Assembly: GCA_014762505.1 (NCBI GenBank)
Contig: JABURS010000042.1
Coordinates: 144,877-208,876, forward strand
DNA length: 64,000 bases
Origin: Chromatiales bacterium
GTDB taxonomy: Bacteria; Pseudomonadota; Gammaproteobacteria; SpSt-1174
Reading direction: 5' to 3'
Under the pieces are notes generated by a model that saw only the letters and a list, made by a program, of their open reading frames with translations, ran no database searches and was not told where the DNA came from. Numbering within the stretch: position 1 is the first letter of the stretch; each line of letters starts with the position of its first letter. Below are positions 3,330-53,373 of the stretch, one piece after another. Made by a program: the position numbers and the translations under genes.

Positions 3330-4068
3330 CGAACTCAAGCACTACCAGCCCCCCGCCGACCTGCTGAAGGACCGCGTCATCCTGGTCACCGGGGCGGGCG
3401 ACGGCATCGGCCGGGCGGTGGCAAAGGCCTGCGCCGCGGCCGGCGCCAGCGTGATCCTGCTCGGCAAGACCATCAAGAAACTCGAGGCCGTCTACGACGA
3501 GATCGAGGCCGCCGGCGGTCCGCAGCCGGCCATCTACCCGCTGAACCTCGAGGGCGCCACTGCCAAGGACTACGACGACCTGGCCGAGAACATCGGCCAG
3601 GAATTCGGCCGGCTGGACGGCCTGGTGAACAATGCCGCCTGGGTCGGCACCCTCACCCCCTTCAAGCTCTATGACCCGGAACTCTGGGGCCGGGTGATCA
3701 TGACCAACCTGCACGGTCCCTTCCTGCTCACCCGCGCCTGCCTGCCGCTGCTGGAACAGGCCCCGGATGCCGCCATCGTCTTCTCCAGCCAGGACTGCAA
3801 CAAGGCCTACTGGGGCGCCTTCGGCGTGGCCAAGGGCGGGCAGCAGAGCATGATGAAGATCCTCGCCGCCGAGTATTCGGGCGAGCGGCGCATGCGCGTG
3901 AACAGCATCGACACCGGGCCGGCCCGCACCCAGCTGCGCATCATGAACTACCCGGGCGAACCGCCGGCCAGCCTGCCCGCCCCAGAGGCATTCGCTGCGG
4001 CCTACGTCTACCTGCTCGGCCCCGAGGCGGGCGAGACACGCGGCGAGGACTTCCGCCTCTACGAATAA
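3316..4068 (+). CDS. YciK-like short-chain dehydrogenase/reductase with Phe at the catalytic Tyr position
   Basis: 250 residues with an SDR Rossmann fold. The cofactor motif TGAGDGIG is at residues 25-32 and NNAAWVG at about 105-111. The region aligns with E. coli YciK (DRIILVTGASDGIG...), an uncharacterized SDR. In place of the canonical YxxxK the sequence reads WGAFGVAK, so the catalytic Tyr position is Phe169 while Lys173 is kept. The codon is TTC, so this is not a reading error of mine. Oxidoreductase activity is therefore doubtful, or another residue (for example Tyr165) takes over. It overlaps hpnE by 14 bases and is followed directly by a strong terminator, making it the last gene of the hpn operon. 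Confidence 0.8.
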   Translation: MPSIDELKHYQPPADLLKDRVILVTGAGDGIGRAVAKACAAAGASVILLGKTIKKLEAVYDEIEAAGGPQPAIYPLNLEGATAKDYDDLAENIGQEFGRLDGLVNNAAWVGTLTPFKLYDPELWGRVIMTNLHGPFLLTRACLPLLEQAPDAAIVFSSQDCNKAYWGAFGVAKGGQQSMMKILAAEYSGERRMRVNSIDTGPARTQLRIMNYPGEPPASLPAPEAFAAAYVYLLGPEAGETRGEDFRLYE

Positions 4069-4096
4069 GCCGGCGACGAAGCGTCGCGACGGTGCC

Positions 4097-4133
4097 CATG
4101 AAAAAGGCCGGACAGTGTCCGGCCTTTTTCATG
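4097..4133. terminator. Bidirectional intrinsic terminator
   Basis: A perfect 18-bp inverted repeat with a single-base centre. The GC stem GGCCGGACA/TGTCCGGCC is flanked by A5 on the left and T5 on the right. It lies between the convergent yciK-like gene and the thioredoxin gene and can stop transcription from both sides. Confidence 0.9.
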
Positions 4134-4150
4134 GATGCGACCGACGGACC

Positions 4151-5194
4151 TCAGTCCATCAGGTTCACCTCCACCCCCTGCTCGCGCAGGTGATGGGCAC
4201 GAGCGTCGATGAAGCGCTGCAGCTCCGGCTCGTTCCGGTAGGCACCGGAGGCCACGTAGTCCATCACCGACTGGATGTGGAAGGACTTCAGATACCCCTC
4301 GGTGCGGAAGACCTCCTCGCCCCGGGCATCGAAGAAGACCAGGCTGGGCGCGTAGTTGACGTTCATCTGCTTCGCCCAGTCGCGCTGTGTCTGGCGCATG
4401 CCCGCCGGTGTCACCAGCGGCTCGTCGGACCACATGTCCACCACCAGCACATCGAAGTCGTCGAGCAGCTCCCGGCTCTCCTCGCGCCGGAGCACGTCCT
4501 GATGCAGCTCGTCGCAGGCGGCGCACTGCTGCTGTTCGAAGAACACCAGCAGGGGCTTCTCGCCCTCGCGGGCGGAGGCGCGCAGATCATAGGGCTTGCC
4601 GACGGTGCTCACCTCGGTGTGCAGCTTGCCGGAGGCGGCCTCACTGGCGGCCTTTGCCAGGTAGTCGCGGAAGGCCAGCTCGCCCTCCATCTTCTGGCCG
4701 ACGTAATCCAGGGCCGCGGTGAACTTGTGCGGGGCGTAGTAACCGTTGATGCGCAACACCACCTCGCCCTGCTCGTCCAGGAACACCAGGGTGGGGGTGA
4801 ACATCACCTTCTGGTCCACCGCAAACTGCTTTTCGGTGGTCTGCCGGCCATCGAGGTCGGTGACCTCACGATCCCCCCACATGTTGATGGCGATGGTGTT
4901 GAAGTACTTCTGCGTCTTGTCGGCGATGGCCTTCTGCCCGAAGTTGTCCTGCAGCAGCTTGGCGCAGTAGGGGCAGCCATCCTGGTAGAAGTACAGCAGC
5001 AGGCGGCGATCTTCGGCGGCGGCCTCGGCCACGTCCTCGCGCAGGTCCAGGAAGGACTCGGTGAACCAGGCGGGCTTCTCCTCATAGCCCGGATTCACGA
5101 AGCCCGGGGCCAGCTCGCCCTCTTCCTTCGCCAGGCCGGTGGTCGCCAGGACCATGGCGGCGAGCCCCCCCAGCAATGCATGCACAGCTCTCAT
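4151..5194 (-). CDS. Exported protein with two thioredoxin-fold domains (SoxW-like)
   Basis: 347 residues. A signal peptide (hydrophobic residues 6-20, cut near TGLAKEE) precedes two tandem thioredoxin-like domains. Domain 1 has a CPYC redox motif at residues 74-77 and a cis-proline loop FTPTLVFL. Domain 2 has CAAC at 224-227 and the loop NYAPSLVFF. Both are therefore potentially redox active in the periplasm. Such proteins serve as thiol-disulfide reductants, for example SoxW in sulfur oxidizers; the partner here cannot be told. Start chosen at the ATG preceded by GGAGGAGTCGAG; a longer frame upstream lacks a signal peptide. Single gene, converging on the hpn operon. Confidence 0.8.
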   Translation of the reverse strand: MRAVHALLGGLAAMVLATTGLAKEEGELAPGFVNPGYEEKPAWFTESFLDLREDVAEAAAEDRRLLLYFYQDGCPYCAKLLQDNFGQKAIADKTQKYFNTIAINMWGDREVTDLDGRQTTEKQFAVDQKVMFTPTLVFLDEQGEVVLRINGYYAPHKFTAALDYVGQKMEGELAFRDYLAKAASEAASGKLHTEVSTVGKPYDLRASAREGEKPLLVFFEQQQCAACDELHQDVLRREESRELLDDFDVLVVDMWSDEPLVTPAGMRQTQRDWAKQMNVNYAPSLVFFDARGEEVFRTEGYLKSFHIQSVMDYVASGAYRNEPELQRFIDARAHHLREQGVEVNLMD

Positions 5195-5264: not shown

Positions 5265-5939
5265 TCATCCCGCAGATCGTTCCCCCGCGCGGCCTTCGGC
5301 CGAGGGGCAATCCGCACGCAGGCAGCACTCGGCACAGCAGGGGCGCGGGCGGCAGACGTGCTTGGCCTGGGCGACGATCAGGGCATGGTATTCGTTGAAC
5401 AGCGCCACATCCGGCGGCAACACGCGCTCGAAGGCATGGCGCAGGGCCTCGTAGCCCGCGTCGGGGGCGCAGAGCCCCAGGCGGGAGAACAGCCGCCGCG
5501 TGTAGGCATCGATGACGAACACGGGGCGGCGAAAGGCGTAGAGCAGGATGTCGTCGGCCGTCTCCGGTCCCACCCCCTTCACCGCGAGCAGGGCATGGCG
5601 CAGCTTCTCCGTCGGCCAGCCAGCGATGGCCTCGACGCCGCCGGCCGCCACCAGCCAGCGGCACAGCGCCTGCAGGCGGGCGGCCTTGACGTTGAAATAA
5701 CCGGAGGGGCGCAGCCGCGCGGCAAGCGCGGCCGTATCGCAGGCGAGCAGGCGCCGGGGTTCGAGCAGGTCGTCGGCGCGCAGGTTGGCGATGGCGCGCT
5801 CGACGTTACGCCAGGCCGTGTTCTGGGTGAGCACGGCCCCGACCATCACCTCGAAGGCGGTGTCGGCCGGCCACCAGTGCTGGGGCCCGTGCCGGGCGAG
5901 CAGTCGGTCGTAGACCCTGCGCGCCTGGCCCGGGGTCAC
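5265..5939 (-). CDS. HhH-GPD DNA glycosylase, endonuclease III-like with [4Fe-4S] cluster, no catalytic Lys
   Basis: 224 residues from a GTG start that overlaps the rluB stop (GTGA). A helix-hairpin-helix, VKGVGPETADDILL (residues 120-133), is followed by the essential Asp144 in VIDAYTRR. The C-terminus has four clustered cysteines spaced for an iron-sulfur cluster (Cys196, 202, 205, 211). In endonuclease III the hairpin carries the lyase Lys (GVGRKTA); here that position is Glu126. This pattern is that of monofunctional glycosylases such as MagIII-type enzymes, so base excision without strand cleavage is predicted. The damaged base recognised is unknown. It is translationally coupled to rluB. 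Confidence 0.8.
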   Translation of the reverse strand: MTPGQARRVYDRLLARHGPQHWWPADTAFEVMVGAVLTQNTAWRNVERAIANLRADDLLEPRRLLACDTAALAARLRPSGYFNVKAARLQALCRWLVAAGGVEAIAGWPTEKLRHALLAVKGVGPETADDILLYAFRRPVFVIDAYTRRLFSRLGLCAPDAGYEALRHAFERVLPPDVALFNEYHALIVAQAKHVCRPRPCCAECCLRADCPSAEGRAGERSAG

Positions 5940-6823
5940 TTGCCGCCCCGCCCCCAGGGATTGGACTTGCCGCCGGACCGGTCGCGCGACCGCGGACCAC
6001 GCGCCTCGGCCGGGCGCGAGGCACTGCGCCGGCTGGTCGAGGGCGGTCGCGACCCCGTCACCCCGGGCTTGGGCTTCGGCGCCACGTACTTCAGGCCCAC
6101 GGCCTCGTAGAGCTGGCGCATCTCGCGGGGCTTGAGGTCCGCCCAGCGCCCCGGCTTGAGCGCGCGCTGCAGCTCGATCGGCCCGTAGCGCACGCGGATC
6201 AGGCGACTCACGGTCACGCCCTGCGACTCCCACAGGCGGCGCACCTCGCGCTTGCGGCCCTCCTTCAGGGTGACGCGGAACCAGGTATTGGCCCCCTCGC
6301 CACCGGCCCGCTCCAGGGTCTCGAAGGCGGCGCGGCCGTCCTCCAGCTCCACCCCGGCGAGCAGGCGCTTCATCATCGCGTCGTCCACCTCGCCCAGCAC
6401 GCGCACGGCATACTCGCGCTCGATCTCGCTGGAGGGGTGCATCAGCCGGTTCGCCAGCTCGCCGTCGTTGGTGAAGAGCATGAGGCCGACGGTGTTGATG
6501 TCCATGCGCCCCACCGCCACCCAGCGGCTGCTCTGCATGCGCGGGAGATGATCGAACACGGTCGGGCGCCCCTCGGGGTCATCCCGGGTGCAGACCTCGC
6601 CGACGGGCTTGTGATAGGCGATCACGCGCGCCTTGAAGTGCGAGACCCTGGACAGGGCCACCGGCTCGCCGCGTATGGCGATGACATCGGTCTCGCTGGC
6701 GTGATCGCCCAGGGTGGCCGGCTTGCCGTTGATGGTGATCTGCCCCTGCTCGATGAGGCGTTCGATCTCGCGGCGCGAGCCGTAACCGGCACGGGCCAGG
6801 AGTTTTTGCAGTCGTTCAGCCAT
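5936..6823 (-). CDS. rluB: 23S rRNA pseudouridine(2605) synthase RluB
   Basis: 295 residues. An N-terminal S4 RNA-binding domain (RLQKLLARAGYGSRREIERLI, from residue 4) precedes the RsuA/RluB catalytic domain. The active-site motif GRMDINTVGLMLFT holds the catalytic Asp at about residue 108. RluB isomerises U2605 in 23S rRNA. The tail after about residue 245 is basic and low in complexity (PSTSRRSASRPAEARGPRSR), typical of RluB and probably RNA-binding. The downstream glycosylase gene starts inside its stop codon. It is divergent from moaB. Confidence 0.9.
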   Translation of the reverse strand: MAERLQKLLARAGYGSRREIERLIEQGQITINGKPATLGDHASETDVIAIRGEPVALSRVSHFKARVIAYHKPVGEVCTRDDPEGRPTVFDHLPRMQSSRWVAVGRMDINTVGLMLFTNDGELANRLMHPSSEIEREYAVRVLGEVDDAMMKRLLAGVELEDGRAAFETLERAGGEGANTWFRVTLKEGRKREVRRLWESQGVTVSRLIRVRYGPIELQRALKPGRWADLKPREMRQLYEAVGLKYVAPKPKPGVTGSRPPSTSRRSASRPAEARGPRSRDRSGGKSNPWGRGGK

Positions 6824-6912: not shown

Positions 6913-7434
6913 ATGACGAACCCGCGCGAATTCATTCCGCTCAATATCGCCGTTCTCACCATCTCCGACACGCGCACCGAGGCGGACGACACCTCGGGAC
7001 GCACGCTCGTCGAACGCGCGCAGGAGGCCGGCCACCGCGTGGTGGAAAAGACCATCGTGCCGGACGACATCTACCGCATCCGCGCCGTCGTCTCGCAGTG
7101 GATCGCCGATCCCGGGGTACAGGTGGTGCTCACCACCGGCGGCACCGGCGTCACCGGCCGCGACGGCACGCCCGAGGCCATCGCCCCGCTGCTCGACAAG
7201 GCGATCGAGGGCTTCGGCGAGATGTTCCGTATGCTCTCCTACGAGGAGATAAAGACCTCCACCCTGCAGTCGCGCGCCATCGCCGGGGTGGCCAACGGCA
7301 CCTATCTGTTCTGCCTGCCGGGCTCCTCCGGCGCCTGTCGCACCGGCTGGGACCGCCTCATCCGCGAACAGCTCGACCACCGCACCGCCCCCTGCAACCT
7401 GGCCATGCTCATCCCCCGGCTGCGGGAACGTTAG
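6913..7434 (+). CDS. moaB: Molybdenum cofactor biosynthesis protein MoaB
   Basis: 173 residues of the MoaB/Mog family. The molybdopterin-binding motifs TISDTR (residues 17-22), TTGGTG with the following GRDGTPEA, and the C-terminal LPGSSGA are all present. Proteins of this family bind molybdopterin and, as Mog-type enzymes, adenylylate it before molybdate insertion; MoaB of E. coli itself seems dispensable. No other moa/moe gene is in the window. It is divergent from rluB, with an 89-base gap holding a possible TAGAAT -10 box at about 6870. Confidence 0.9.
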
Positions 7435-7496
7435 GCGGCAAAAGGCGACAAATCAAAATAACAACAAGACCAATCACCGTGTCCGGGAGATCCACG

Positions 7497-8402
7497 ATGT
7501 CCACCAGAGCCAGACTTCTCGCCACCAGCCTCGCCGCACTGCTCGGTGCCGGCGCCCTGCAGGCCGAGACCCCTCGCGCCATCGCCGAGGGCCATACCCA
7601 CTACAACTGGAACCAGCACGAGACGCTCCCGCCGGACGAGGCCATCCGGCGCCTGAAGGAGAACAACGTGGTGTTCGTGGTGGTGGCGAGCTCGCCCCCC
7701 GAGCTGGCGGTCGAACTCGCCGAGGCCGGTGGTGGCGACTGGATCGTGCCCATCTTCAGCCCCTACCTCACGCCGGTACACCGCCACAACTGGTACAACG
7801 ACCCGGAGGTGCTGGTGCAGATGGAAAAAGGCCTGGCCTCCGGCAAGTACCACGGCATCGGCGAGGTGCACATGCTGCCGGGGCTGGGGCCGCACCGCAC
7901 CCACCCCGCCTTCCTCAAGACCCTGGATCTCGCCCGGCAGTACGACGTGCCCTACATGATCCACACCGATGCCTCGAGCTACAAATACCTGCTGTCGATC
8001 TGCATGCAGCACAGCGACGTGCGCTTCGTCTGGGCCCATGCCGGCGGCATCCTGCCGCCGGAACAGGTCGACGCCCTGCTGGAGGGCTGTCCGAACGTGG
8101 ACATCGACCTCTCCGCACGCGACCCCCTGCGCCACACCGAGACGCAGATCATCGACGAGAGCGGCAGCCTGCTGCCTGGCTGGCGCGACCTGGTGCTCAA
8201 GCATCCGAGCCGCGTCATCGTCGGCGCCGACCCGGTCTGGCCCGTCTACAACAAGCACGCCTGGGACGCACCGGACACCGGCTGGGACAAGCTCGAGTTC
8301 TTCCTCGACTTCCACCGCCGCTGGATCAGCGACCTGCCCGAGGACATCCAGGAGGCCATCCTGGTGGAGAATGCGAAGCGCATCTATACGCCGCGACAGT
8401 GA
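7497..8402 (+). CDS. Secreted amidohydrolase-family metal-dependent hydrolase
   Basis: 301 residues. A signal peptide (LLATSLAALLGAGALQAE, residues 7-24) leads into a TIM-barrel of the amidohydrolase-2 type. Candidate metal ligands are the N-terminal HTH (EGHTHYNW), GIGEVHML, IHTDAS, WAHAGG and GADPVWP. Members hydrolyse or decarboxylate varied substrates; I cannot assign one. The start was chosen at the ATG after GGGAGATCCACG, because it gives a clean signal peptide; the frame is open further upstream, overlapping moaB, without support. It follows moaB by 62 bases, and a repeat-rich gap follows it. Confidence 0.75.
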   Translation: MSTRARLLATSLAALLGAGALQAETPRAIAEGHTHYNWNQHETLPPDEAIRRLKENNVVFVVVASSPPELAVELAEAGGGDWIVPIFSPYLTPVHRHNWYNDPEVLVQMEKGLASGKYHGIGEVHMLPGLGPHRTHPAFLKTLDLARQYDVPYMIHTDASSYKYLLSICMQHSDVRFVWAHAGGILPPEQVDALLEGCPNVDIDLSARDPLRHTETQIIDESGSLLPGWRDLVLKHPSRVIVGADPVWPVYNKHAWDAPDTGWDKLEFFLDFHRRWISDLPEDIQEAILVENAKRIYTPRQ

Positions 8403-23937: not shown

Positions 23938-24045
<108 letters not shown>

Positions 24046-46971: not shown

Positions 46972-47047
<76 letters not shown>

Positions 47048-47632: not shown

Positions 47633-48487
47633 CTACTGTGCTATTCGCTTCAGCGTGCTCGGGTCGTAGCCGCATTCGCGAATAAGCTGCTTATAGTGGT
47701 CATCGATGTTGCGAGTACCAGACTCCCACGCACCTTTCACGAGTCGATTGCAACGCGCCCTCTCACGTTGTCGTGTTTCTGTAAGGCGCTGCTCATATGC
47801 TTCAGCACTAAGATCTTTCAGCTCGATGGATTCGAGCACCGGCCTGAGAAACACCTGATCGATATCAATATCGTAAAGCGGCTTACCGTTTTTATAATAA
47901 AAGCCTGCGCTAAATCCTATGTGATGGTATCGATCATTTCCGATCTCCCAACATGCATACCCTACACCGGAATGTGTTTGCTCATCTGTCACCTCGCGTT
48001 CAGCGTTCCGCTTATAACTATTTGAAGCAATTCTCCAACATTCAAGACTTCCATGACGAATTCTGGTTATGTCACGTTCAACGTAGTCATGTGACTCCTG
48101 TCTCTCGCTCCACTCAACCTGACTTAATGCAAGCCACTCTTCAGGAGTGACAAATGGCTTCCCAATTAGATGAATGTCAGTACCGATACCGAAATGTGCG
48201 ACTTCAGTTACTCCTATGACCTCACTGTAACTAAACCCACCCATAACAGATACTCTCCATCCATCTCTTTGCGTATCATGACTGATCAGGACTGATTGAC
48301 AGGGTGTAAGATCCGACCAGTAACCAGATGGCGTAAAGCGCACGCGCTCTAACTCAACTGTTTGCTCGAAATCAAACCCACATGCGTCACGCATTATCAC
48401 TGTGTCTGGCTTGAAAGGGTTATTAACGACTCCACACCCGACATGAATAAGAGAAACAATACCGATTGCAATGATTCGGGAAATCAT
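47633..48487 (-). CDS. Predicted lipoprotein of unknown function
   Basis: 284 residues. A lipobox-like VGCG (Cys18) follows IIAIGIVSLIH. Several further cysteines (in DACGFDF, LTPCQSV, ECWRI, ACWEIG) suggest disulfides; a charged helix lies at the end. Base composition is much lower in G+C than core genes. The start overlaps the stop of the truncated hydrolase (ATGA), so the two were one transcription unit; it could be the matching immunity or accessory protein (inference). Confidence 0.7.
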   Translation of the reverse strand: MISRIIAIGIVSLIHVGCGVVNNPFKPDTVIMRDACGFDFEQTVELERVRFTPSGYWSDLTPCQSVLISHDTQRDGWRVSVMGGFSYSEVIGVTEVAHFGIGTDIHLIGKPFVTPEEWLALSQVEWSERQESHDYVERDITRIRHGSLECWRIASNSYKRNAEREVTDEQTHSGVGYACWEIGNDRYHHIGFSAGFYYKNGKPLYDIDIDQVFLRPVLESIELKDLSAEAYEQRLTETRQRERARCNRLVKGAWESGTRNIDDHYKQLIRECGYDPSTLKRIAQ

Positions 48488-49072
48488 TGTGCACGCACCT
48501 GACTACCATCGTGAAGTATCAATATCGGCTTCGGATGTGTGTTTCTGAAATGCTCGACTGACGGTTGTTGACCTCCGGCACATGCCACCCCCTGACAAAT
48601 GTAATCACTATGTGGACTTTTATCGCCACCGAACAAGACGAGCGGGATTGATGCAAAACTGTCGATAAACGATACAGGTCTTTCCCTATTCCAATTATTT
48701 CCAAGAAGCGGCATATCTGCTACTGAATCGACGACTCTCGTGCCAAAGATTGTAGATTTCCCATCGGGTCGATTGACCTGAAATACTACCCGACTCTCAG
48801 TTGAATCAGTCGTTTCTTCATTCACTTTAAACCCTGATTCTTGCGCTACCTTAAAGAATTTCGTTGCCCTCACTGGCGCCCCCGACAGCTGAATCGTACC
48901 TGTTTTAGTGTTTGGTTCTCCATTAGTAAAATCCAATCCATCAATCGCACGATAGGTAATCAGCCCACCCTGACTGTGTCCCGCGAGATTGATCGTATGA
49001 TTTTGATCGATGCCTTTTTGCAAGAAACTCTTAAACTGTCGCACATTCCCGGATGCGCCTGCGGGGTCAGGT
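48484..49072 (-). pseudogene. C-terminal remnant of an alpha/beta-hydrolase (lipase-like), cut by the IS element
   Basis: About 195 residues remain. They include a nucleophile elbow GHSQGG (NLAGHSQGGLITYRAID) and, near the end, a possible His in SVEHFRNTHP. The reading frame runs on into the IS end, where a chance GTG adds nine residues. The missing N-terminal part is not found on the other side of the IS. Such C-terminal lipase-like domains occur in large polymorphic toxins and filamentous proteins; whether this was one is unknown. Confidence 0.65.
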
Positions 49073-49102
49073 TGAGGTACCCCCGGTTTTCCGGACACAT
49101 GG

Positions 49103-49969
49103 TTAAGCCAATTCCGACATCATCTCGAAATCGACTGGGGTTGTGAAGCCCAGCGATTGATGCAGACGTAGGCGATTGTAGAACACCTCCATGTATTCGA
49201 AGATGGCTGTGCGCGCCGCGTCCCGGTCTTCAAATACGACATGATGCACCAGCTCATTCTTCAAGTTGCTGAAGAAGCTCTCAGCCACGGCATTGTCGAG
49301 GCAGTTGCCCTTGCGGCTCATGCTTTGCACGATGCCATAGTGCTTTAGCCTGGCGCGATACACGGCGCCGACGTATTGCTACCCCTGATCGCTGTGGATG
49401 ATGAGGCCTGGCTCCGGTCGTCGACGTTTCACAGCCATGTGCAGGGCATCCAGCACGAGCTGCTGGTCGATGCGCTGACTCATGGCCCAGCCGACGATCC
49501 GGCGCGCAAAAAGGTCCACGACAGCAGCCACATAGAGCCACCCACGCCGGGTCGGCACAAAGGTGATATCCGTGACCCATACCTGGTTTGGACGTGTCGC
49601 CGTGAAGTTGCGGTTGAGCAGGTTTGGCGCCACAGGTTCATGGTTGCTGCGTGCCGCATAGGTCTGGCGGAAACGGCGCACGCGCTTGGCAACCAGGCCG
49701 TCGAGCCTGCGCAGTCGGGTTACCCGGTGCCGTCCGCAGGTTTCGCCACGGTCCCGTAGTGCCCTCCAGGTCTTGTAATCGCCATAGTTCTCGCGTGACT
49801 CCTGATGCACCTCACGGATAAGCCGGAGCAGGCGATTATCTTCCTCGGCGCGACGACTGGGGGTGCGAGCACGCCACTCGTAATACCCGCTGCGGCTTAC
49901 ACCTAGCGCAGCACACATGGTGCTCACATGGAATTTATCGCGATGCTCGTCCATGAAGGCGTACCTCAC
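49103..49969 (-). pseudogene. IS3-family transposase OrfB with in-frame amber codon
   Basis: About 288 codons. The HTH-linked N-terminus (ALGVSRSGYYEWRART) precedes the DDE integrase core: Asp in WVTDITFV, Asp in IHSDQG and Glu in NAVAESFF. A TAG at 49379-49381 replaces the Ser codon expected after HSDQG (in family members HSDxGSQY), splitting the domain before the catalytic Glu. A single base change (TCG to TAG) explains it. Normally made as OrfAB by -1 frameshift; the A7 run at 49999-50005 fits. Confidence 0.85.
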
Positions 49970-50262
49970 CTCGATTCCTTGGCAAAGTACAGCGCGGCTT
50001 TTTTTAAAATGTCACGCTCCTCGGTAACCCGGTCCAGCTCACGCTTCAGCCGAGCAATCTCGGCATCCTTGTCACTGGTGGGGCGGCCACGGCCGGGAAA
50101 TGCCTGGTCGCCATGGGCCTCAACCTCGTCGCGCCAGAGGTACAGCTTATTTCGGGCAATGCCCAATTGTCGGGCGATCTCAGCAGCTGGCTTATCGCCC
50201 TTCTTCAGCAGCCGCACCGCTTCGAGTTTGAATTCTCGGCTAAAGGTTTTACGCTTTTGCAT
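49966..50262 (-). CDS. IS3-family transposase OrfA
   Basis: 98 residues. HTH (FKLEAVRLLKKGDKPAAEIARQLGIARNKLYLWRDEV in pieces) followed by a leucine-zipper helix (DAEIARLKRELDRVTEERDILKKAA). The A7 run (TTA AAA AAA GCC) near the end allows a -1 frameshift into the frame of orfB; the orfA stop overlaps a GTG of orfB. Frame intact. Confidence 0.9.
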   Translation of the reverse strand: MQKRKTFSREFKLEAVRLLKKGDKPAAEIARQLGIARNKLYLWRDEVEAHGDQAFPGRGRPTSDKDAEIARLKRELDRVTEERDILKKAALYFAKESR

Positions 50263-50323
50263 CGGACACCTCTCCGGGGCATTATCCCCTTATCTGGGTG
50301 TCCGGAATATCAGGGGTGCCTCA

Positions 50324-50635
50324 TACTGTCCCCGGAATTGCCACAACAAGGTATGGCCAGCCGCTCTGAAAGAGGATTGAAAACGGTTCGGCTTTGGTAA
50401 TGACTAAGTGCGCTGCTGCATCCCACGCTAGGATCGCTAACAAAGCAAAAATACTGGACACGATCAAACGCTTTCGCCAACTTTGAAGATAGGTAGACCA
50501 GATGCTCGGAACAAGGAATGCTACAACCAAAACAGCGAGAGACAGAGCGTGTACTCGGACTGGCGCATTGCTTAGGCCGAGATATACTGCAGAAAGCGCC
50601 AGATAGACAATGCTAGGAATTAGATATCTACGCAT
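50324..50635 (-). pseudogene. Cassette-borne membrane protein, 3' end cut by the IS
   Basis: About 103 codons remain, with three probable TM helices (IPSIVYLALSAVYLGL; ALSLAVLVVAFLVPSIW; LIVSSIFALLAILAWDAA) and PYLVVAIPGTV; its present stop is the first codon of the IS end. It starts a few bases after the R' core of an attC site, the position of a cassette gene. Function unknown. Confidence 0.7.
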
Positions 50636-50643
50636 TCTTAGAC

Positions 50644-50715
50644 GCCTAACGTTTAAGCTGTGCGGCGCAGACGAAGCGTAGCGTAGTTTGCGTCCGAACG
50701 AGCGCCTTGTTATAC
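50644..50715 (-). other. attC recombination site of an integron-type gene cassette
   Basis: On the minus strand GTATAAC...GTTAGGC, 72 bp, with an inner imperfect stem CGGACGCA...TCTGCGCCG. The stop codon of the upstream cassette gene (GTATAA) lies in the R'' box, a common feature of cassettes. Confidence 0.82.
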
Positions 50716-51456
50716 CGTATTTTTCGTTGCCTCATAAATTACGGTAGCTATATAAGAGCCTATTGCGCCCAGGATAATTGCTGAAATGGCAGAAATAACC
50801 ATTGACCAAATTGGATGTTTTTTCACAAATGAAACAATTCTATAAAACAATGGTTTTTTTATTTTTATAATTTCATTTTGAGCTTTTGAGATGGTTTCAT
50901 TCGATACCTTCTCCTTTCGTAGGCGCTCAACACAATCAGGACAGATAATTGGTTCGTGGAGTGAATATATAATATCTGTTTTGATGCCGTTCATATCAAA
51001 TAGGCAACCACGGGTTTCATCATGTGTGAAATTTGTGGCCTCATCATTCAGCGGTATTCGCTCTCCACTACGTTTGTATAAAAAGGTGTAAGCATATAAG
51101 AGCCGAAATACTGCATTTTCTAACGGTATATTAAAGCCATTTAAAATATCTTTAATTTCGTGAAAGGTAAAAACCACTCTGTTTTTACTAAGTCGGCGTG
51201 TATACCAGTTGTACTCAAGAGGAACATTTACAATTGCGATGAGAAAATTGCCTGTAAATTGTTCCGGCAAAACCTGTTCAAGTTTGGCATCAGTAAATTC
51301 CCACCCATAACCATCCGAATCTTGTGTAAGGGAGTAATTTTCAATATCGCCCACGACTGAGAATAGGGCTGACTTCCAGCTTTTGATTTTTCTTTTATCA
51401 AACTCGCTGGGCATATGGCCTATTGTTACTACTGATATTGTTGTCTTATCCATCAT
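50710..51456 (-). CDS. Cassette-borne C-tail membrane-anchored protein of unknown function
   Basis: 248 residues. A soluble N-terminal part of about 200 residues with a zinc-like CPDC pair (ICPDCVERLRK) and a C-terminal TM helix (WSMVISAISAIILGAIGSYIATVIY). AT-rich codon use, very unlike neighbours. Flanked on both sides by attC sites, with a short spacer and GGGAA before ATGATGGAT. No family recognised. Confidence 0.75.
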   Translation of the reverse strand: MMDKTTISVVTIGHMPSEFDKRKIKSWKSALFSVVGDIENYSLTQDSDGYGWEFTDAKLEQVLPEQFTGNFLIAIVNVPLEYNWYTRRLSKNRVVFTFHEIKDILNGFNIPLENAVFRLLYAYTFLYKRSGERIPLNDEATNFTHDETRGCLFDMNGIKTDIIYSLHEPIICPDCVERLRKEKVSNETISKAQNEIIKIKKPLFYRIVSFVKKHPIWSMVISAISAIILGAIGSYIATVIYEATKNTV

Positions 51457-51468
51457 TTCCCTATTAAG

Positions 51469-51556
51469 GTATAACGTTTTGCTAAGGGGCGCGGAGCCGC
51501 AGCGCGGCGGAGCGTCCCAGTGAGCGATAGCGAACGACTTGAGCTAATTGTTATAC
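51469..51556 (-). other. attC recombination site of an integron-type gene cassette
   Basis: 88 bp on the minus strand, GTATAAC and GTTATAC perfectly complementary at the ends, inner boxes AATTAGCTCAAG and CTTAGCAAAAC, and a GC-rich centre. It separates two cassette genes. Confidence 0.82.
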
Positions 51557-51622
51557 GTTTCTTCATGCTATTCACTATAAATGATATTTAGTGTGTGACA
51601 CCACGGGAGCAGCAATTAAAGA

Positions 51623-51736
51623 TTAATCAGGTGTGGAGCGATAATGCTCCTTAACTTTCACCTTTTTGCCTTTAACCACCTTTGTATGCTCAGGTACATG
51701 TACCTTCTTTAGCTTCCGATCTTTCGTCTTGGCCAT
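51623..51736 (-). CDS. Very small basic protein in the cassette array
   Basis: 37 codons with GGAGGCGAAA directly before the ATG. The product is Lys-rich (MAKTKDRKLKKVHVPEHTKV, then VKGKKVKVKEHYRSTPD), without Cys or TM. It lies upstream of an attC in the orientation expected for a cassette gene. Function unknown; coding is inferred from the RBS and position only. Confidence 0.55.
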   Translation of the reverse strand: MAKTKDRKLKKVHVPEHTKVVKGKKVKVKEHYRSTPD

Positions 51737-51873
51737 TTTCGCCTCCAAAGTAGGAACGACCTAGCGAGTAGGTCTCTCCGAAGCAGCCCATCTGCTCCGC
51801 CTCTGTATCAGAGTTTCTGGGCTCAATGAAGGTATAAGACCGTGGTGCCACACCTGAATATCACTCCTTTGAC

Positions 51874-51880
51874 GTATAAC
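51874..51880. other. Isolated attC-like core (GTATAAC)
   Basis: CGTATAACTACAATTAG resembles the outer part of the attC at 51469-51556 but has no partner box within 150 bases. It may be the edge of a decayed attC or a chance match. The rest of the gap to 52009 shows three AAACCGGWCA copies (about 51911, 51969, 51991) and no gene. Confidence 0.35.
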
Positions 51881-52009
51881 TACAATTAGTGGGCCTAAAA
51901 GACCGTTTTAAACCGGTCATTTGGGACCCGTAACAGAGGGGCCCCATAGAAATCAGTCGCTTGGAAAAAGCAAACCGGACAATCGAAGTGAAACCGGTCA
52001 ACCGCGACG

Positions 52010-52837
52010 TCACTCAATCACCTCCACCTTCACGCTAATCGCATCATCCCGCCCGCGCGTCTCCCATTGGCGCGAGGCGGTGCCGCTGGATTCATACCGC
52101 TCTTCCTCTGCCACGCCGCCAATGGTGATCCATTCGCCCACCGGCCCCGAGATCGTGGTCACGGCCTCCTGGGTGGCGATGGTCTGGTCGGACTGCAGTG
52201 ACTGCTGCACGGGGCGGATGTGCAGGTAGACGCGGTCGCCGGAGATCCTCGGGGTGACGTAGAAACCGGTTTCCACGCGCCGGTATTCGACGCCGCTGGA
52301 GGTGATGACCCGGTTGCCGGTGATGATGGCGGCGGTGGTGACGTAGGGCACGTCGCCGCCGGTGCGGATGAAGGCGCTCTGGCCTTCGAGCACGCGTAGG
52401 GAGCTGGCGCGGGTGGTCTGGCCGCGGGTGCTGCGTTCCCGTAGCGTGCCGTGCAGGCCTTCTTCGTCGGTGTCGCCCAGGGTGACGCTGCCGCGCTCGT
52501 TCTCGATGCGGCCGCTGGCGCCGATCTCGCGGTCGCGCAGGTCTTCGGCACGGCCGGCGCTGACGGTGACGAGCATGTTCTTCTGGGCCTGGTCGAGCTG
52601 GCGGACGAGCTCGCGGACCTCGCGGATGCGTTCGGGGGCGGCGCGGATGATGAGCTGGTAGCCGGTGCCGGTGAGGGCGTCCTGCGGCTGGAGCAGGGGG
52701 CGCACCAGCGGGATGACTTCCTCGGCGGGGCGGTTGCGCAGTTCGATGATCTCGAGCCGGTCGCCCGCGGCGGCGATAGCGGTGCCGCCGAGTGCCGCGA
52801 GCAGGAGGGCAAGGAGCAGGGTGGCGGCGCGCATCAT
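52010..52837 (-). CDS. Secretin-like periplasmic protein (NolW-type domain)
   Basis: 275 residues. Signal peptide (LLLALLLAALGGTAIAAAG). An N1/NolW-like domain (IIELRNRPAEEVIPLVRPLLQPQDALTGTGYQLIIRA in pieces) is followed by a secretin-like beta part (GFYVTPRISGDRVYLHIRP). Too short for a full secretin barrel. The first of two ATGs is used; it overlaps the stop of the upstream gene. No other secretion genes are nearby, so its function is unknown. Confidence 0.75.
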   Translation of the reverse strand: MMRAATLLLALLLAALGGTAIAAAGDRLEIIELRNRPAEEVIPLVRPLLQPQDALTGTGYQLIIRAAPERIREVRELVRQLDQAQKNMLVTVSAGRAEDLRDREIGASGRIENERGSVTLGDTDEEGLHGTLRERSTRGQTTRASSLRVLEGQSAFIRTGGDVPYVTTAAIITGNRVITSSGVEYRRVETGFYVTPRISGDRVYLHIRPVQQSLQSDQTIATQEAVTTISGPVGEWITIGGVAEEERYESSGTASRQWETRGRDDAISVKVEVIE

Positions 52838-53373
52838 AAATGCAGGCGCTGGAAGTTGGGCTCGTGCTCGGCGTGCTCCCACAGGCTGGTGAATTCGTTG
52901 TGCAGGTCGCGGGCGCGGGCGGGGTTGTTGAACTCCAGCGTGGCCTCGTAGAGGTCGCCCTTGCCGCGGTGCAGCACGCCGCGCCGGTCGGCGACGAGGA
53001 AGGCCTCGTTGTAGTGGGCCTGCTCGGGGCGCAGGCGCCGGATCTGGATGTAGCTGCTGAGCCGGCGGGCGGTCTCGATCAGGCGGTGGCCGTGGGCGAT
53101 GGCGTGCTCGGTGTTGTTCACCAGGATGCGGACCTCGGCGTAGCGGCTCTGGCGCGCGAGTTCGGCGATGGCGTCATCGAACTCGGCGGTGTCGTAGACG
53201 GCCGGGTCCATGTCGCGGGTGACGATGTGCAGCGAGCGGCGCGCCTGCCGGGCGAGCAGGAGTGCGGCGAGGCGGTTCTGCTCGATGTTGTCGAGCCGCA
53301 GCGGTTCGTGGTCGGTGCCGAGCTGGTAGCGGTCGGGATCGGCGAGCAGGGGATGCAGGGTGTCGTCGGCCAT
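52834..53373 (-). CDS. DUF7931-like cytosolic protein (PLD-like fold suspected)
   Basis: 179 residues from the chosen ATG (MADDTLHPLL); an upstream ATG adds 19. RLDNIEQNRLAALLLARQARRSLHIVTRDMDPAVYDT is the conserved start, and ALEFNNPARARDLHNEF-like end follows. The HKD motif of active phospholipase D is not seen. Related proteins often lie beside a GNAT acetyltransferase, as here. Confidence 0.65.
   Translation of the reverse strand: MADDTLHPLLADPDRYQLGTDHEPLRLDNIEQNRLAALLLARQARRSLHIVTRDMDPAVYDTAEFDDAIAELARQSRYAEVRILVNNTEHAIAHGHRLIETARRLSSYIQIRRLRPEQAHYNEAFLVADRRGVLHRGKGDLYEATLEFNNPARARDLHNEFTSLWEHAEHEPNFQRLHL

Follow-up and report, generated by a model that had tools for sequence, protein, structure and literature searches.

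Within a 64-kb stretch of the genome of a Chromatiales bacterium (hereafter the window), we identified an array of three minus-strand gene cassettes that is headed by an attI site, cut by an insertion sequence (IS) and devoid of a neighbouring integron-integrase gene (intI). We read this locus as an integron platform without intI, most likely served in trans by the integrase (IntI) whose intact gene lies on another contig of this genome, C13, and put the probability of this reading at roughly three in four. It builds on an attI, attC sites and matching cassette ends at the locus, the absence of intI there, an intact intI elsewhere in the genome, and the recurrence of the arrangement in other gammaproteobacteria.

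Layout of the cassette array

On the minus strand, the order of elements is attI, cassette 1, attC2, cassette 2, attC1, cassette 3 and an IS3-family element:

49073–50323, minus: IS3-family element, terminating the array; sole complete copy in the genome, OrfB in two frames
50324–50649, minus: cassette 3, truncated; 104-aa hydrophobic ORF (50321–50635) cut by the IS
50644–50715, minus: attC1, 72 bp; 34.9 bits with the attC covariance model
50650–51474, minus: cassette 2; 248-aa ORF (50710–51456) with a predicted C-terminal hydrophobic segment
51469–51556, minus: attC2, 88 bp; 39.2 bits with the attC covariance model
51475–51879, minus: cassette 1; 37-aa basic ORF (51623–51736), ends matching 8/8
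51873–51929, plus: orphan attI (no intI), core and palindrome; crossover at G51880 on the minus strand
51894–51925, no strand: inverted repeat of the attI, with covarying arms at 51894–51906 and 51913–51925
51930–52001, plus: remainder of the attI unit, homologous to the region upstream of intI; intI-promoter part decayed
51951–51956, minus: candidate –35 box (CTGATT) of a cassette promoter, suggested by the fixed position of a TTGA-type box
52010–52882, minus: secretin-like flanking host gene; its orthologue in a sister genome has no adjoining attI

The array thus runs from the IS edge at 50324 to the attI at 51880 and holds three cassettes; a preliminary description made from the letters of this DNA had set the first limit correctly, but had ended the array at 51736. 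The same description had proposed two attC sites of 72 and 88 bp in the same orientation. Indeed, attC2 and attC1 were the sole matches in the 64-kb window, at E values up to 10, of a covariance model whose training set comprised 16 attCs from intI-bearing loci and excluded the window sites. Across the whole genome, the model returned six matches at E<1e-3: three on C13, which belonged to its training set, the two in the window and one on contig C32. Both window sites have close relatives in other genomes, attC1 being 97% identical over 66 nt and attC2 92% over 85 nt to attCs found there. As the preliminary description had noted, the TAA stop of the 248-aa gene lies inside the R'' box of attC1 (GTATAAC, 50709–50715) and the minus-strand cassettes are AT-rich, with GC contents of 47.6, 38.2 and 47.5% vs. 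67.1% for the window.

At the two attCs, the recombinogenic bottom strand (plus strand of the window) folded more stably than the top strand (–13.3 vs. –10.4 and –18.7 vs. –14.2 kcal/mol). Relative to shuffled sequences, the fold was notable for attC2 (z = –1.93), in which the R boxes pair, while the z value of attC1 was –0.27 and its minimum-energy fold leaves the R boxes, of which R' lies in the next cassette, unpaired. Free-energy folding was discarded as the sole attC test, since it could not separate attC1 from shuffles, and hand-made finders of R and L boxes proved too unspecific; we used the covariance model instead, which supports both sites. Rfam yielded no attC or attI match, and its low-threshold matches at 50.3–52.1 kb look like chance.

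The cassette ends provide a test that uses the sequence alone and is independent of any model. The first eight nucleotides of cassette 1 (GTTATACG) match the R'' box of its own attC (CGTATAAC) at 8/8 positions, as do those of cassette 2 (GTTATACC) and its own R'' box (GGTATAAC). The two pairs differ from one another in their last letter, yet each matches itself, as expected for circular cassettes inserted at G^TT. As expected if attI heads the array, cassette 1 starts at the GTT crossover. At the level of sequence, the matching ends show that IntI-type recombination filled this attI at some time; the cassettes would have entered by integrase-mediated recombination of attC with the window attI at G^TT.

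The 248-aa protein of cassette 2 is 83% identical to a protein from another genome (G242) that is encoded behind an attC and beside intI. Together with the matching ends, this homologue identifies the units as integron gene cassettes, i.e. a gene and an attC that circulate as one. None of the cassette proteins matched a defence family. The 37-aa, highly basic protein of cassette 1 showed a weak match to the phage family phrog_21154 over 47 positions. The leader of cassette 1 was considered as a structured RNA and rejected (z just –1.42).

At its far end, the array had been described as cut by an IS, and the IS3-family element truncates cassette 3 and has removed whatever followed. Its transposase gene orfB (49103–49969) is split into two frames (49379–49969 and 49103–49363), and the element has therefore probably lost its activity; contig C28 also carries 71 nt of it. 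A hydrolase-like ORF with an AGHSQGG motif (48484–49098), whose start runs into the IS end, is probably truncated by the element. At the other end, the secretin-like gene terminates at 52010, 9 bp beyond the attI unit, and no intI homology was found there. Elsewhere in the window lie a bacterial small SRP RNA (23940–24036) and a tRNA-Ala (CGC; 46972–47047).

The window attI and the integrase gene on contig C13

In agreement with the preliminary description, the 64-kb window contains no intI. A whole-genome search with TIGR02249 located an intact gene elsewhere: C13 alone exceeded the cut-off of 265 (481.6 bits, no stops), and this integron combines the intact intI with three detected attCs. 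The further claim that there was no clear attI did not hold. Positions 51865–52001 of the window aligned locally over 137 nt with the C13 region between the first cassette and the intI start (score 133; maximum of 38 in 200 shuffles), and since the C13 attI lies upstream of an intact intI, this homology identifies an attI in the window, at 51873–51929 and with extended homology to 52001. The site scored 75.7 bits with an attI covariance model (R2), a self-included value, as the window attI was part of the training set. Homology between the two attI units ends 13 nt short of the position of the intI start codon.

With at least two clustered attCs and no integron-integrase gene nearby, the locus is by definition a cluster of attC sites lacking an integrase (CALIN), and not a complete integron, in which intI adjoins attI. 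The initial proposal of an integrase-less attC cluster stands to this extent, but the attI at its head makes the locus a platform minus intI rather than a stray cluster. Off-target insertion of cassettes at a chance attG-like site, with no real attI, is one proposed origin of CALINs (PMC8618304); here it is contradicted by the 137 bp shared with the C13 attI, whereas attG sites are neither attI nor attC, and we regard it as very improbable.

The window attI is 75% identical to that of C13 and 72% to that on contig C46 of genome G001. As the latter two belong to orthologous integrons of two sister species and are 92% identical to one another, the window attI looks like an old paralogue. Its divergence is uneven: core and palindrome are 90% identical between the window and C13, but the intI-promoter part only 60% (Fisher p = 1.6e-4), whereas C13 and C46 show the opposite trend, with 51/59 identical positions (~87%) in the attI part and 63/66 (95%) in the promoter part. 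Likewise, in the window and two orphan attIs of G001, identities of 0.78–0.90 were kept in the attI part vs. 0.27–0.61 in the intI-promoter part (ungapped), where the 27% of locus L142 is a lower bound owing to the comparison without gaps. The platform may thus descend from an older copy of the integron, in which the loss of intI was followed by decay of the intI promoter.

Promoter decay is also what the strongest rival reading predicts, namely that a second integron lost intI by deletion and left an inert array, with cassettes older than the loss. The presence of just two intact cassettes, with an IS inside the third, fits this view, as does the frequent inactivation of intI in Xanthomonas (PMC12444791). 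However, the genome retains an intact integrase gene, and decay has spared the core and palindrome next to the promoter part. We rate an inert relic as a real possibility, albeit a doubtful one.

The same genome carries a second intI-less cassette cluster on C32 (about 7000–8300 of locus L099; 1000–2300 of L063), with ~3 cassette-like ORFs between an Fe–S oxidoreductase-like gene and a tRNA, and one attC of 34.5 bits; model R2 found no attI in this cluster. A weak attC (21.1 bits) near the start of contig C33 (227–291; L100), beside a reductase-like gene, may be where the C13 array ends or may belong to a further cluster.

Conservation and recurrence of orphan attI units

The attI consists of a core, TAACTATAATTAG, followed by an inverted repeat with 13 pairs. 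Over 39 aligned rows, five of them reverse-strand self-hits, pairing was seen in 84.8% of cells, and covariation reached 0.332 compared to 0.129 after shuffling and at most 0.10 when the structure was slid; for 25 orphan sites alone, the value was 0.316 vs. a shuffled mean of 0.127 (maximum 0.182). Because the alignment was fitted to the structure under test, these counts lean towards it. As pairing covaries even in the orphans alone, the palindrome seems constrained at these sites, too, which speaks against inert relics, although part of this signal could predate the loss of intI. A role of the palindrome as intrinsic terminator was rejected, as a T-run is missing on either side in the sequences listed.

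At ~27 nt past the palindrome, in a position fixed across sites, lies a TTGA-type box. Its placement is consistent with the –35 element of a cassette promoter (Pc), which the attI unit may carry; sigma-70 scoring gave 7.38 vs. 7.10 for shuffled sequences, i.e. not above shuffles.

For a survey of 369 gammaproteobacterial genomes, we combined a DNA search with the C13 attI and covariance model R2. As six of the ten attIs that trained R2 were orphans, including that of the window, the sampling is not unbiased. Surroundings were inspected for 34 full-length matches, with at least 2.3 kb on the intI side at every intI-less site. Six of them adjoin intI (L007, L095, L066, L091, L147 and L141), and the L066 gene (G001, 3450–4419) is shifted out of frame by one base near residue 65, unless this is a sequencing error in the metagenome-assembled genome. 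Three more have intI remnants (L146, L159 and L151) and represent loci of an intermediate type, while 25 of the 34 lack intI. Among these 25 orphans, 14 head attC arrays (attC E<0.1) and 11 are followed by no attC, partly owing to contig ends.

All 45 attC matches at attI loci fell on the side and strand predicted from the attI orientation. Of 13 orphans tested, eight have a first cassette whose start matches the R'' box of the first attC at 8/8 positions and two more at 7/8. Across the variable positions, the match was 4.08 of 5 vs. ~2.35 expected, and none of 20,000 permutations was as good (p<5e-5). The exceptions are L137 (weak first attC), L149 (distant first attC) and L156.

G133, a single contig, contains two attIs linked to intI and, at different loci, five or more orphans. 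Most of the other orphan-bearing genomes also encode an integrase above the cut-off elsewhere, namely G001, G228, G096, G093, G340 and G304, with a partial one in G112. Other orphan-bearing genomes fit the relic reading instead: G036, likewise a single contig, has three orphan attIs and a pseudogene intI, and no integrase above the family cut-off was found in G334, G245 and G086. Some platforms are thus probably relics, since their genomes lack an intact intI. The orphan-bearing genomes G101 and G216 are incomplete.

Within the array of locus L150 (G036 C1:646500–656000), two complete attIs lie in the same orientation with two attCs between them. L137 of G133 carries an attI core without palindrome (6290) inside an array headed by a complete orphan attI. 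The sister species G228 and G112 share an orthologous orphan attI at the same host gene (L144, about 3984–4563; L148, about 5548–6138), and their DNA differs from the attI core onward. We rejected this pair as proof of cassette turnover, because the G112 side starts a tyrosine-recombinase-like reading frame at a contig end.

Among the orphans whose in-register extension was significant, nine, drawn from six genomes (the window, L142, L093, L136, L137, L149, L150, L152 and L154), stay homologous up to 5–18 nt short of the intI start codon, and L092 and L094 over a shorter distance. L156, an offset match, does so up to ~19 nt short of it; in the other orphans, homology past the palindrome was not significant. 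These figures stem from a strict alignment that replaced a first analysis with loose gap penalties, in which shuffled scores had matched the real ones. The common end reflects either a footprint of selection after intI loss or the end of a copied unit. As an end shared between genomes, it argues against inert relics.

The second option would imply that attI units spread as short, intI-free elements of ~130 bp, reaching further places in the chromosome by copying or transfer along some route, and acquired cassettes there. Such copying would account for the several orphans within single-contig genomes and for the sister genome, which has no attI at the locus orthologous to the window but orphans at its other loci. 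Yet neither target-site duplications nor mobile-element ends were identified, copies within a genome have diverged rather than being recent duplicates, and the constant end may merely mark what selection has kept. We consider copying unlikely.

Supply of integrase in trans and relation to known systems

Under our preferred reading, a platform served in trans, the C13 IntI would act today on the window attI and circular cassettes. A functional IntI is considered able to mobilise CALINs in trans (PMC12444791). On the other side, the cassettes may date from a time when the platform still had its own intI in cis, the region of the window corresponding to the intI promoter and Pc has diverged, and the candidate –35 box of Pc reads CTGATT, not TTGATT. 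More broadly, and at a little under even odds, many gammaproteobacteria may possess a distributed integron. One integrase gene, or two, would be accompanied by several conserved but intI-less attI platforms at scattered loci, each with its own short array collected and expressed in trans. A large share of the CALINs in these bacteria would then be functional satellite platforms rather than debris, overlooked because attI had not been modelled. Should orphan attIs work in trans, a single integrase would control several loci, and counting intI-linked arrays would consequently underestimate the capacity for cassette capture.

The origin and activity of CALINs are an open question in the field. 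They have been regarded as degraded integrons (PMC9024848), and three routes to their formation have been proposed (PMC8618304). With a model of attI, sequence data alone help to tell these origins apart: an attI at the head marks a platform that once had an integrase or shares one, whereas arrays without attI may stem from off-target insertion or rearrangement. Beyond class 1, attI sites escape IntegronFinder, being poorly described (PMC9024848); the family defined here, with its core, covarying palindrome and fixed TTGA-type box, offers a tool for non-class-1 attI that present software lacks.

With CALINs, an IntegronFinder category, the window array shares at least two attCs, the lack of a neighbouring intI and a single cassette orientation; that category ignores attI, however, and here a recognisable attI heads the array. 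Cassettes away from an integrase are also found at secondary attG sites; the window site differs in being a 57-nt attI that is conserved and includes a palindrome. Delta-attI-type gene cassettes (PMC12901181) resemble our locus in having an attI-derived site away from its usual position next to intI, but these sites are reported to flank cassettes inside mobile integrons, whereas our chromosomal array starts with a complete attI; L150 of G036, with its two attIs in one array, comes nearest to them. Sedentary chromosomal integrons that lost intI, such as the Xanthomonas ilvD locus, are similar in their attI-side arrangement, their cassettes and their lack of a functional intI. In Xanthomonas, the integrase stays at one canonical locus and separate CALINs lie elsewhere (PMC12444791); here, by contrast, an intact integron occupies another locus, and several genomes have multiple orphan attIs at different loci. 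In the open-licence literature, outside which most subscription journals fall, we found no account of orphan, solitary, multiple or dispersed attIs or of attI-headed CALINs. CALINs are a known kind of locus, and the recurrent, attI-headed arrays described here are a new subclass of it.
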